Below, piece by piece: positions 32,966 through 36,173 of a stretch of DNA of 64,000 nt (within the stretch, counting starts at the first letter, position 1; the number at the start of each line of letters is the position of its first letter). The notes below the pieces were generated by a model that did no database searches, was not told the DNA's origin, and saw only the letters and a program-made list of their open reading frames with translations. This DNA comes from Pseudomonas sp. FP1742 (GTDB lineage Bacteria; Pseudomonadota; Gammaproteobacteria; Pseudomonadales; Pseudomonadaceae): NCBI RefSeq assembly GCF_030687145.1, contig NZ_CP117460.1, positions 5,332,001 through 5,396,000 on the forward strand. The letters run 5' to 3'. The position numbers and the translations under genes are program-made.

Positions 32966-33400
32966 TCAGTCGGTTTCGATCAGCGAAGCTCGATAAAACG
33001 GCAAGATCAGGTCCCGTGTCAATGGCGCCAGGGTGAGATCACCGTCGGTGGCCGGATCGATCCAGCACACCTCTTCGATCTCCGCCGCCGGGCAGACATG
33101 GGAATCAATGGTCAGCTGAAAGAGTTCGGCCTGTACGACAAAACCCGGCTCGTTGGCGGCCGGGGCCGAGAATGGCCCCAGATAAATGGCGTGCGCCGGG
33201 TCGATGACCAGCCCCAGTTCCTCTTCCAGCTCACGGGCGAGGGCGTGGACCGGTTGCTCATGAGCCTCGATCTTGCCGCCCGGCTGCATGAACGCCTGGG
33301 TGCCGCGCTTGCGCACCAGCAAGGTGCGACCGTCGGGGCCGATCAGCAGGGCAGCGGCAATGCGGATGATACGGGGCGAAGCAGCGGATGAAAGCGTCAT
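32966..33400 (-). CDS. Nudix hydrolase
   Basis: A 144-residue protein with a complete Nudix box (GGKIEAHEQPVHALARELEE, about 41-60, followed by ELGL), so it should hydrolyse a nucleoside diphosphate derivative. The substrate is unknown. It is the first gene of a Nudix-LysE-GNAT run on the minus strand. Confidence 0.9.
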   Translation of the reverse strand: MTLSSAASPRIIRIAAALLIGPDGRTLLVRKRGTQAFMQPGGKIEAHEQPVHALARELEEELGLVIDPAHAIYLGPFSAPAANEPGFVVQAELFQLTIDSHVCPAAEIEEVCWIDPATDGDLTLAPLTRDLILPFYRASLIETD

Positions 33401-33483
33401 GGATCAGGATCGGCCTTGGGTAAAGGGCCACAAGGATCACATGAGCTTCGGTTCTTCGTCACGCCGTAAAAAAACATTCATCG

Positions 33484-33572
33484 AGAACCCTGTGGGAGCG
33501 GGCTTGCCCGCGAAGAACGATGACGCGCAATACCTGAAAAAACGCGGCGCATTCTTCGCGGGCAAGCCCGCT
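33484..33572. repeat. REP doublet, right arm interrupted by the IS110 element
   Basis: The left arm is 33484-33517. The right arm holds only the first 21 bases (33552-33572, ending in CCCGCT); its last 13 bases stand at 34741-34753 beyond the insertion. Joined, the two pieces complement the left arm at all 34 positions. Confidence 0.95.
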
Positions 33573-33587
33573 TGTATGTTTAGACTT

Positions 33588-33764
33588 GAAGGGGTGGGTG
33601 GGACTAAAAGCCCGATTCTGACTCTAGCCAGTACAGACCGTGGGAGACTTCGTCCCACCCCTTCTACCTAAAAGCGCCAATAAGGAATTCATCGGCTAGG
33701 CCGACGATAGAGACAAGCCAGCGCAACGGTAGACCCCAACAAGCTCTTAAACCCTAGCTCCGAG
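33588..33764 (+). ncRNA. Candidate bridge RNA of the IS110 element
   Basis: A basal stem (33588-33604 with 33652-33664, one 4-base bulge) encloses an internal loop. Its left side contains AAGCCCG (33608-33614), identical to target bases 33564-33570. Its right side contains GTGGGAG (33640-33646), complementary to CTCCCAC (34739-34745). A small apical stem (TCTG 33617-33620 with CAGA 33634-33637) caps the loop. This is the target-binding-loop design of the IS621 bridge RNA. A second structured part follows (hairpin 33689-33709), and ATAGA/ACAAG segments may bind the donor ends. The 3' end is a guess. Confidence 0.72.
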
Positions 33765-33772
33765 GATTCGTC

Positions 33773-34735
33773 ATGACAATCCTTACTTCGCAAGCGGTCG
33801 TGGGTGTTGATGTGGCCAAGGCTGAGGTGCTCGTCTATCGCGCCGATCTGCAAACCACACAAGCCATCTCCAATAATCGAGCAGCACTCAAACGTTGGCT
33901 CAAGACGCTGCCCGCCAAAAGTGGCATTGCCGTTGAGGCCACCAACATTTACCACTTGGACACGGTTGAGTTGGCCTATGAGTTGGGTCATCAGGTCTAC
34001 GTCGTGGACGGTTATCGCTTGAGTCATTACCGCCGCAGTGTCGGCCAACGAGCTAAAAATGATCCGTGTGATGCTCGTCTTCTGGCTCGGTATCTGGCGC
34101 ATGAACAGGGTGGGTTACGCGCTTGGAGCCCGCCGCCCAAGGCTTACAAGGCCCTGCAAAGCCTGCTTCATCGACGGGCAGCACTGATCAAGGCGCGTGT
34201 CAGCCTGGCTCAGAGCTGGGCCAATGAGCCGCGCCTGGAAGAAGAGCTGAAATGTCTGATGGAGACGTTTAAGCGCTCGGATTTGGCCATTCAAAAACAG
34301 CTGCGTGACCTGAGCAAAGAGGCCGGAGCCGCCGAAAATATTGAGCGTTGCAAGGCCATTGAAGGCGTTGGTGTACTGACGGCAACTGGATTTGCGACGG
34401 CTTTTTTGCGTGGCGAGTTTAAGGACAGCAATGCCTTCATCGCTTTTTTGGGCATGGACTTGAGGGTCGATGACTCGGGAAAAAAGACGGGGAGTCGCAG
34501 TCTGACCAAGAAAGGGGATCCGGAAATACGACGTCTGGCCCACAACTCGGCCATGGCCGCCTGTCGTTCAGCGACCTGGAAACCATTTTATGAAGGGTAC
34601 CTGGCCAGAGGTTTCAAGAGGACTCAGGCCCTGGTAATCCTTGCCCGAAAACTCGCCCGGGTGGCGTTCGCTCTGATGAAAAACCAGAGCGAATACCAAC
34701 CGAATCGACCGTTGCAGGGTTGTCCTGCAACATAG
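33773..34735 (+). CDS. IS110-family transposase (DEDD bridge recombinase)
   Basis: A 320-residue recombinase with an N-terminal RuvC-like DEDD domain: D13 (VGVDVAK), E55 (AVEATN), D97 and D100 (KNDPCDARLLARY). The C-terminal Transposase_20 domain has the IEGVGVLTATGFATAF helix-hairpin-helix and SLTKKGDPEIRRLAHNSA; S243 and S259 are candidates for the catalytic serine. All motifs are intact and there is no frameshift, so it may be active. The stop codon is only 5 bases from the right end of the element. Confidence 0.92.
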   Translation: MTILTSQAVVGVDVAKAEVLVYRADLQTTQAISNNRAALKRWLKTLPAKSGIAVEATNIYHLDTVELAYELGHQVYVVDGYRLSHYRRSVGQRAKNDPCDARLLARYLAHEQGGLRAWSPPPKAYKALQSLLHRRAALIKARVSLAQSWANEPRLEEELKCLMETFKRSDLAIQKQLRDLSKEAGAAENIERCKAIEGVGVLTATGFATAFLRGEFKDSNAFIAFLGMDLRVDDSGKKTGSRSLTKKGDPEIRRLAHNSAMAACRSATWKPFYEGYLARGFKRTQALVILARKLARVAFALMKNQSEYQPNRPLQGCPAT

Positions 34736-34814
34736 AATCTCCCACAGGGTTCTGCGTCTTGACTGACCGGCATCACACAGCCTCCTGCCGTTGATCGGTA
34801 CTGAGTCTGAACAC

Positions 34815-36173
34815 TCAACTCGTCTCCAGAATCGCAGCCTCCACTTCCTCCGGCACCTTCACAAAAATGCTGTACTTGGCCCCTTCCATCGCCTCGAAGG
34901 CGATCAGTTTTTCCACCAACGGCCCGTTCAATACCTTGCCGGCATTGAGCAGCAGCATGCCGTTGTCGGCATTCAGGTTGCGCGCCAGGATCATGCCCGC
35001 CACCAGATCCCGGGTGCTCAGCACCTTGACCGTCGGGTCAGCCAGCGTCACATCGCTCAGGTAAGCCGCGCAAACCTGAATGAAATCCTCCACCAGTTCC
35101 GGGTCATAGAGCCGACCGGCGTACTGGCGGATATACACCAGCGCTTCATCGCTGTTCATCTGCCGCTCGAGGATCAGCCCGCGCTGCAACTCGATGAAAT
35201 CCACCGCCAGCTTCAGCAACCGTGAACCGAACGGAATCGACTCGCCCTTGAGCCGGTCGGGAAAACCGCTGCCGTCCCAGCGCTCCTGGTGGTGCAGGAT
35301 CAGCCGCGCGGCATCCTTCATCGGGTCGAGCGTCATCAACAGTGACTCGCTCTGCTTCGGATAACCCCGATAGCGCTCGCGGTCATTGTGATGCAGCAGG
35401 TCCGAAGGCGTACTCATCATGCTGTCGGTCCAGCTCAACTTACCCATGTTGTAGAGCGCCGCCGCCATGGTCAGGTCGCGACTGGTGCCTTCGTCCAGAC
35501 TATGGAGTTTGCAGTACACCCGCACCACTTCGATGATTTGCCGGTTGGTTTGCTTGGCGGGCGGCAGGCGCAGGTTGGCCAGCAACGAAAACACTTCCGT
35601 GCCGGTGACATAGCTGCGTTTGAGCTCTTCGTAGGCCAGGTCCAGCATGTCGGCGGTCTGTTGCAGCTCGCTGGTGCGGGCCGCGACGTGTTTTTCCAGG
35701 GTGGCGTTGAGCAGTTTCAATTTCTCGTTCTGATCCCACGTCTCCTGCACCAGACGCAACCGCTCACGTTCGGAATACTGATAGGCGAGAGATTGTCGCA
35801 ACGTCAGCAGCATTTCCTCATCGTGCCAGGGCTTGCTGATGTATCGATGGATCTGCCCTTCATTGATGGCTTTGATAATGGCCGACGGATCGGCATAACC
35901 GGTCAACATGATCCGGGTGGTGTTGGGGTAGTGCTGATGGATGTAGGCCAGCAGCGTGGCGCCGTCCATATTGGGCATGCGCGCATCACTCATCACCAGA
36001 TCGACCGGCCGCTGCGCCATGATTTCCAGGGCCTGGGCACCGCTGGTGGCCAGCAGCACCTCGTAGGGCTGGCTGCGTAACAGTCGGCGCAGGCTGTTGA
36101 GAATCGACTCCTCATCGTCCACCAGCAGTAACGTGGGTTTATCAGTCACAGTCGTGGGGAGTTGCTCTTCCAT
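34815..36173 (-). CDS. Response regulator with degenerate HD-GYP (YN-GYP) domain
   Basis: 452 residues: receiver domain (LLVDDEESILN, phosphoacceptor D63 in MSDARMPNMDG), coiled linker (about 140-185), HD-GYP-like domain (about 190-370) and a C-terminal extension. The metal-binding HD pair is Y241-N242 (AALYNMGKLS) and GYP reads GFP (HHQERWDGSGFP, 294-305). It resembles the P. aeruginosa PA2572-type YN-GYP regulator, so c-di-GMP hydrolysis is doubtful and a binding or scaffold role is more likely. It is divergent from the GGDEF/EAL operon by 259 bases. Confidence 0.88.
   Translation of the reverse strand: MEEQLPTTVTDKPTLLLVDDEESILNSLRRLLRSQPYEVLLATSGAQALEIMAQRPVDLVMSDARMPNMDGATLLAYIHQHYPNTTRIMLTGYADPSAIIKAINEGQIHRYISKPWHDEEMLLTLRQSLAYQYSERERLRLVQETWDQNEKLKLLNATLEKHVAARTSELQQTADMLDLAYEELKRSYVTGTEVFSLLANLRLPPAKQTNRQIIEVVRVYCKLHSLDEGTSRDLTMAAALYNMGKLSWTDSMMSTPSDLLHHNDRERYRGYPKQSESLLMTLDPMKDAARLILHHQERWDGSGFPDRLKGESIPFGSRLLKLAVDFIELQRGLILERQMNSDEALVYIRQYAGRLYDPELVEDFIQVCAAYLSDVTLADPTVKVLSTRDLVAGMILARNLNADNGMLLLNAGKVLNGPLVEKLIAFEAMEGAKYSIFVKVPEEVEAAILETS

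Follow-up and report, generated by a model that had tools for sequence, protein, structure and literature searches.

A predicted REP-programmed bridge RNA in the 5′ non-coding end of an ISPpu10-like IS110 element of Pseudomonas

An IS110-group element within a REP sequence

The window, the whole 64,000-nucleotide stretch of DNA analysed here, lies on a 6.67 Mb chromosome of Pseudomonas sp. FP1742 and contains an ISPpu10-like insertion sequence of the IS110 group at 33573..34740 on the forward strand (1,168 bp). The element interrupts a REP sequence at a CT core that is found on either side of it (33571-33572 and 34739-34740), giving the layout TTCGCGGGCAAGCCCG-CT-[IS]-CT-CCCACAGGG. The left portion of the broken REP (33555..33572, +) includes the left target AAGCCCG (33564-33570) and the first core CT, and the right portion (34739..34749, +) begins with the second core CT and continues with the right target CCCAC. 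A second REP, in inverted orientation, closely precedes the interrupted one at 33490-33515, which places the insertion in a REP pair.

We compared the element with published systems using five papers (PMC11208160, PMC11208158, PMC11187229, PMC1525189 and PMC8450116), cited below by accession. Its left end is 200 bases long, the stop codon of the recombinase gene (tnp) lies five bases before the right end, CT is present on both sides, and there is a short ATA/TAT sub-terminal repeat (CATAGAAT and TGTATG). These are the end features given for the IS110 group in PMC11208160, namely a long left and a short right non-coding end, the core at both ends and a sub-terminal repeat. The features of the IS1111 group, a guide RNA in a long right end and long sub-terminal inverted repeats, were absent, with only five bases following the stop.

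The recombinase (320 amino acids; 33773..34735, +) matched PF01548 (1.8e-19) and PF02371 (3.3e-13) and has DEDD RuvC-like and Tnp20 domains. It aligned with IS621 over 301 residues (E 3.5e-22), and, assuming that the PDB chain is shifted by two residues, D13, E55, D97, D100 and S235 align with the IS621 catalytic residues D11, E60, D102, D105 and S241 as listed in PMC11208158. The protein family is covered by solved structures, those of IS621 and ISCro4. The name ISPpu10 was attached to two of the 120 relatives listed for the window protein, at 74% and 64% identity.

The same genome carries ten full copies of the element (nine of 1,168 bp and one of 1,167 bp) and one truncated copy, all near-identical. 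All ten full copies and both edges of the truncated one mark the identical point of a REP; AAGCCCGCT stands to their left and CCCAC to their right. Among five REP forms counted in this genome, AAGCCCGCTCCCAC is by far the commonest, with 1,238 sites versus 7, 17, 7 and 2 for the other forms. Because the copies are near-identical and one REP form dominates, they offer no discrimination and are by themselves no test of guides; we therefore rejected them as guide evidence and relied on relatives, which do provide such a test.

Guides and predicted RNA structure

Two short stretches of the left end correspond to the two halves of the target. The left target guide (LTG), AAGCCCG at 33608..33614 (+), has the same sense as the left target and is identical to it. 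The right target guide (RTG), GTGGGAG at 33640..33646 (+), is the reverse complement of CTCCCAC at 34739-34745 and would pair with the core CT plus CCCAC. Both correspondences had been proposed in a sequence-only reading of this DNA, and their coordinates proved correct to the base. When the 7-mers of 30 + 30 target bases were compared with both strands of the 200-base left end, these two matches were found and no others. That reading had also held that two independent 7-nt matches would be hard to explain by chance. When the left end was shuffled 20,000 times with dinucleotide shuffling, AAGCCCG occurred in 578 and GTGGGAG in 240, and the two occurred together in this order, 10–50 nt apart, in one.

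The guides sit on opposite sides of one internal loop, which lies between a nine-pair outer stem, GGGTGGGAC (33596-33604) with GTCCCACCC (33652-33660), and a seven-pair inner stem, TCTGACT (33617-33623) with AGTACAGA (33630-33637). We refer to this unit as the target-binding loop (33596..33660, +). Guide order, strand sense and placement in the loop are equal to those of IS621, with both matches fitting its order and sense, as the sequence-only reading had stated. The body of the predicted bridge RNA (33585..33743, +) would be closed by CTTGAAGGGG (33585-33594) with CCCCAACAAG (33734-33743).

Relatives were collected by a scan of named genomes (72 loci), a genus search of 398 genomes (matches in 176 at E 0.001) and a class search of 369 genomes (matches in nine at E 1e-30), the window's own genome being included in both search counts; 80 more stretches were then added. 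From the 208 loci we parsed 161 raw full elements, representing 146 distinct insertions; 142 of these have CT on either side, and 140 of the 142 are of normal length. Fifty-three loci had no full element, many of them being contig-edge or partial copies, and plasmid records contained no relatives of the recombinase protein at E 1e-40. An alignment of the 62 distinct left ends revealed conserved blocks that surround a variable stretch holding the left guide position.

Both helices of the target-binding loop, outer and inner, were recovered at set thresholds in 52 of the 62 left ends, compared with 7 of 310 shuffles. A free alifold consensus of 28 left ends was rejected; it misplaced the G-rich 5′ arm, and only 2 of its 30 pairs had changes on both sides. 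We therefore modelled the target loop from 10 close left ends, with the structure given by hand. This covariance model matched the element's strand at E <0.01 in 48 of 57 sources, and in the other nine (L037, L038, L039, L040, L042, L168, L201, L202 and L204) it fell short of E 0.01. The realigned set of 48 matches (43 distinct rows from 47 sources) leans towards the hand structure, which was read from the same sequences; in it, pairing is intact in 97.0% of the pair cells, both-side changes occur in 9 of 16 pairs, and 103 cells are changed on both sides versus 38.7 in shuffles. Sliding the structure by one to three columns left at most 53.3% paired. Further pair types were no more frequent than in shuffles, either in the realigned set (16 versus 16.8) or in the earlier alignment (3 versus 4.6). 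In the earlier alignment the number of pairs with both-side changes was also no higher than in shuffles; in the realigned set, further pair types were the one measure of five that failed to exceed them. These data indicate that the stems flanking the guides are kept among relatives, a check that the sequence-only reading had proposed. The seven pairs predicted for the closing stem of the RNA body are invariant in 28 rows and thus carry no covariation signal. Folding of the single sequence gave a z of -2.0, which is weak alone, and an Rfam search of 33400-34900 returned two matches to unrelated families, both far below gathering scores. In one copy in this genome (L006), an A replaces a G in the 5′ arm of the stem of the target loop (GGATGGGAC).

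The window RNA has no 5′ stem-loop ahead of its two guide loops: there is no room for one of the IS621 type, because just 18 nt lie ahead of the target loop's first G-run. We read this as a variant architecture. Four left ends from outside the genus (L025, L195, L196 and L197) have extra bases before the target loop, with arms that look hairpin-like by eye. These bases may form a 5′ stem-loop that is mostly absent from Pseudomonas left ends. Some extra bases at this position were also observed in L168, a locus within the genus.

Downstream of the target loop lies a putative donor-binding loop (33673..33724, +) with an outer stem of AGCGCC (33673-33678) and CAGCGC (33719-33724), almost invariant in 28 rows, and an inner stem of ATCGG (33691-33695) and CCGACGAT (33701-33708). 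The end of its putative left donor guide, GAAT at 33685..33688 (+), repeats the four bases that immediately precede the right core (GAAT, 34735-34738), and its putative right donor guide, CAAG at 33714..33717 (+), is complementary to the core CT together with the left-end TG; the IS621 right donor guide, C162-G165, pairs over the core according to PMC11208158. Across 64 distinct 230-base left ends, the last donor base and the element end were T and T in 54 and C and C in three, the T/C covariation resting on these three, and seven were uncaught by the search pattern. Those seven have T ends, and the six that were shown all read GAAT. In the excised circle, a candidate -35 hexamer, TTGTCC (34720..34725, +), would stand 17 nt from TATGTT (33575-33580), each box being weak at 4 of 6. 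Hexamers resembling a -35 box peak at this 17-nt spacing across circle junctions, with a mean of 3.37 of 6 and with 23 of the 67 junctions scoring 4 or more, a weak sign of a junction promoter.

Guides and targets change together among relatives

If the two loop positions act as guides, those of relatives should follow the relatives' own insertion sites, a comparison that the sequence-only reading had put forward as a check. We found that the LTG matched its own left target at a mean of 5.78 of 7 positions in register over 139 insertions (one insertion lacks a left flank), compared with at most 2.90 when slid by 1–4. The match was 7/7 in 55 insertions, 6/7 in 49, 5/7 in 14 and lower in 21. The RTG matched the right target at 7/7 in 133 of 138 insertions, two being omitted from this test, and at 6/7 in the other five. 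In most left ends the RTG is GTGGGAG and the right target CTCCCAC. A differing RTG mostly goes with a differing right target (CTCCTAC, CTCAGAC, CTTTGCC or CTCATCG), with exceptions in which GTGGGAG accompanies CTCCTAC (two insertions) or CTCTCAC (one insertion). Counted per unique guide, the match was 5.28 for the LTG (n = 29) versus 3.09 (sd 0.22) with targets permuted (0 of 10,000 permutations), and 6.71 for the RTG (n = 7) versus 4.53 (3 of 10,000).

Permutation ignores descent, and we therefore compared pairs on disjoint paths of a quick protein tree covering 60 elements; two of the 62 left ends were omitted, one without a left flank and one with a short reading frame. For the LTG, guides fitted their own target better than the partner's in 14 independent pairs and worse in 2, with 3 ties (sign p 0.004). 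For the RTG the corresponding counts were 6, 0 and 1, with one of the six favourable pairs (E13/E14) resting on a four-base right flank at a contig end. The tree requires at least 33 changes of the LTG and at least 9 of the RTG. Thus the positions in the loop covary with the insertion site, both over the 139 insertions and on independent branches.

These observations bear on the reading in which the recombinase protein alone recognizes the REP sequence or its hairpin and the likeness in the loop is captured REP sequence or chance. Every copy in this genome does lie in a REP, a sequence with hairpin potential, and CTCCCAC is common to many host REPs, so that a constant RTG is compatible with recognition by protein. 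We nevertheless consider this reading very unlikely: the likeness is made up of two short matches that differ in sense and lie apart, one on either side of a loop, rather than one captured block; a change of guide goes with a change of target in the independent pairs of the tree (14:2 and 6:0); and at several sites of this genome the left REP arm is an imperfect complement of the matched arm (GCGAGCAAGCCCGCT) and the matched letters are unchanged.

The sequence-only reading had named, as evidence against a bridge RNA, relatives with the same guide positions at unrelated insertion sites. Most insertions fit their guide (104 of 139 with an LTG match of 6/7 or 7/7), but there are a few exceptions. 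One is L166, which has the guide AAGCCCG and a left flank of TTGGTAG (2/7) and whose right flank fits; perhaps its left edge was later rearranged. The worst LTG rows, at 3/7 or fewer, comprise 14 insertions, eight of which (E22, E24 and E53) reach 5–7 of 7 if the reading of the guide starts one base earlier. The LTGs of E60 and E61 fit at 7/7 when read one base later, that of E12 fits at 4/7 even when shifted, and two copies of E23 remain at 3/7. L124 stands at 2/7 with its left flank shifted by one base, L091 at 4/7 in register, and the fit is also poor in L198 (0/7) and L199 (3/7). The LTG dinucleotide that faces the core varies among the 62 left ends: AT in 33, CA in 14, CT in 11, GC in three (register-shifted rows) and AA in one. 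It is AT in the window, in contrast to CT in IS621, and 37 of the 62 left ends have a base other than C opposite the first base of the core, unlike the IS621 description. Pairing of the left guide to the core therefore seems relaxed.

Host REP forms and relation to known systems

Counts of four REP forms were made for 45 host genomes; another form, AAGCCCC, was counted in 11 of the 45 and set to zero elsewhere. Guide match was then compared with a choice of REP form weighted by abundance in the host, with wobble scored as 0.5 and copies within one genome treated as independent. The test scored 101 of the 140 insertions, 26 being left out for lack of host counts and 13 for lying in other REP forms; three of the 45 genomes (G018, G094 and G356) were omitted. 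The total match was 622.0, compared with an expected 600.3 (sd 4.25; 0 of 5,000 draws), and in genomes in which no form exceeds 90% (n = 73) it was 450.0 versus 428.5 (0 of 5,000). In G254, for example, the guide is AGACTCG and both insertions are in AGGCTCG, the best-fitting form, which makes up 45 of 1,402 counted sites.

The three genomes outside this test have unusual REPs and guides that fit them. G018 has 275 sites of RNTTCGCTCCYAC and none of the four common forms, and its guide, CAATTCG, fits. G094 has 169 sites of the RNTTCGCTCCYAC pattern, with AGTTCGCTCCTAC in 37 of the 42 listed, as well as 79 of AAGCTCGCTCCCAC; its guides are TAGTTCG and GTAGGAG, and both of its insertions are in AGTTCGCTCCTAC. 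G356 has 111 sites of TCGCGGCTCCTAC, none of the four common forms, and the guides TACGCGG (5/7) and GTAGGAG (7/7). The window's genome has five sites of the RNTTCGCTCCYAC pattern and none of the TCGCGGCTCCTAC pattern. In G139 and G004 a near-identical element keeps the guide AAGCCCG, and AAGCCCC is the main counted form (231 and 439 sites versus 22 and 17); of the five insertions there (four in G139 and one in G004), four are in AAGCCCC, with the mismatch adjoining the core, and one is in AAGCTCG.

Judged from these sequences, the LTG has changed many times across Pseudomonas, and insertions favour the host REP form that fits the guide. It seems moderately likely that the bridge RNAs of ISPpu10-like elements make up a natural series, reprogrammed time and again, in which the LTG often shifts to a REP form that is common in, or peculiar to, the host. 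Guide evolution would then track the repeat landscape of each Pseudomonas, limiting the hosts and REPs that can be colonized, and within a genome guide fit, not abundance alone, would pick the REP form.

Two further readings should be weighed at this point. The folded 5′ end could be a leader controlling translation of the recombinase, with the guide matches secondary, as suggested by ISPpu9, for which PMC8450116 describes a structured 244-nt 5′-UTR and reports that tnp expression is influenced by two small RNAs. We regard this as extremely unlikely as a full account, for it leaves unexplained both the covariation of guide and target and the preference for the best-fitting REP, although leader and guide functions are not exclusive. 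Scarcely credible is a chance match repeated by shared ancestry, which could draw on the near-identity of the copies in one genome and on permutation tests that ignore relatedness, but is contradicted by the independent-pair test, by the register control and by the fitting guides at the unusual REPs of G018, G094 and G356.

We conclude that the 5′ non-coding end of this ISPpu10-like element very probably encodes a REP-programmed bridge RNA, as the sequence-only reading had proposed; what can be seen at the sequence level is the pair of guides in their register, the stems, a covariation with the target among relatives and the family to which the protein belongs. The first loop of the RNA would carry guides for the REP, the second would read the joined ends of the element itself, and the excised circle would recombine at CT in a REP through the DEDD/serine recombinase encoded alongside. 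By analogy with IS621, the RNA would be transcribed from the circle junction, bind the recombinase and pair with the DNA strands, and strand exchange would follow.

According to PMC11208160, IS621 enters E. coli REPs by means of a bridge RNA, the principle of guide–target covariation is shown on thousands of elements, and bridge RNA guides are predicted for ISPpu10 of Pseudomonas putida (Durrant 2024, Extended Data Fig. 10c). Because the IS621 bridge RNA enters E. coli REPs and ISPpu10 guides had been predicted, a REP-programmed bridge RNA is as such already known, and the novelty that the sequence-only reading implied does not stand; the window adds a Pseudomonas example. IS621 and the window element share a DEDD and serine recombinase, a left-end RNA, two guide loops, a CT core and a REP target, but the REPs differ. 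The window RTG matches seven target bases including the core, whereas the IS621 RTG is G77-G80 in the structure (PMC11208158); longer RTGs are reported for some orthologues in PMC11208160. ISPpu10 resembles the window element in its insertion in REPs, described with a 2-bp direct repeat in PMC1525189, and in its predicted guides, the likeness here being drawn from database names of relatives. REP insertion of ISPpu9 and ISPpu10 has been in print since 2006. The seekRNAs of IS1111/IS110 elements include that of ISPa11, which enters a P. aeruginosa REP; ISPa11 belongs to the IS1111 group and its RNA lies downstream of tnp, whereas the window RNA lies upstream. ISPpu9 of P. putida KT2440 shares REP insertion and a structured 5′-UTR with the window element, but its small RNAs Asr9 and Ssr9 are described as regulators of tnp, not as guides, in the available portion of PMC8450116. 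In the open-licence literature, most of it covered at the level of listings, we found no account that relates guides to the REP forms of their hosts across Pseudomonas.

Our results extend a recently found RNA-guided recombination system to a well-sampled Pseudomonas branch with naturally varied guides, and support a simple reason for the long-known insertion into REPs, namely that the REP is written in the RNA. The table of guides, targets and hosts is a ready set for studying mismatch tolerance of bridge recombinases, offering mismatches next to the core (G139 and G004) and in the core-facing bases of the LTG, together with seven matched bases on the right.

The truncated eleventh copy in this genome (L011:1501-1777; G000 376706-376982) keeps the entire bridge RNA region and the start of tnp and then runs straight into the right portion of the REP at ...GATCT-CCCACA; its breakpoint falls at an ATCT that also occurs in the right end. 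It is an orphan guide RNA locus without a recombinase, comparable to the orphan ssr9 copies that are reported for ISPpu9.
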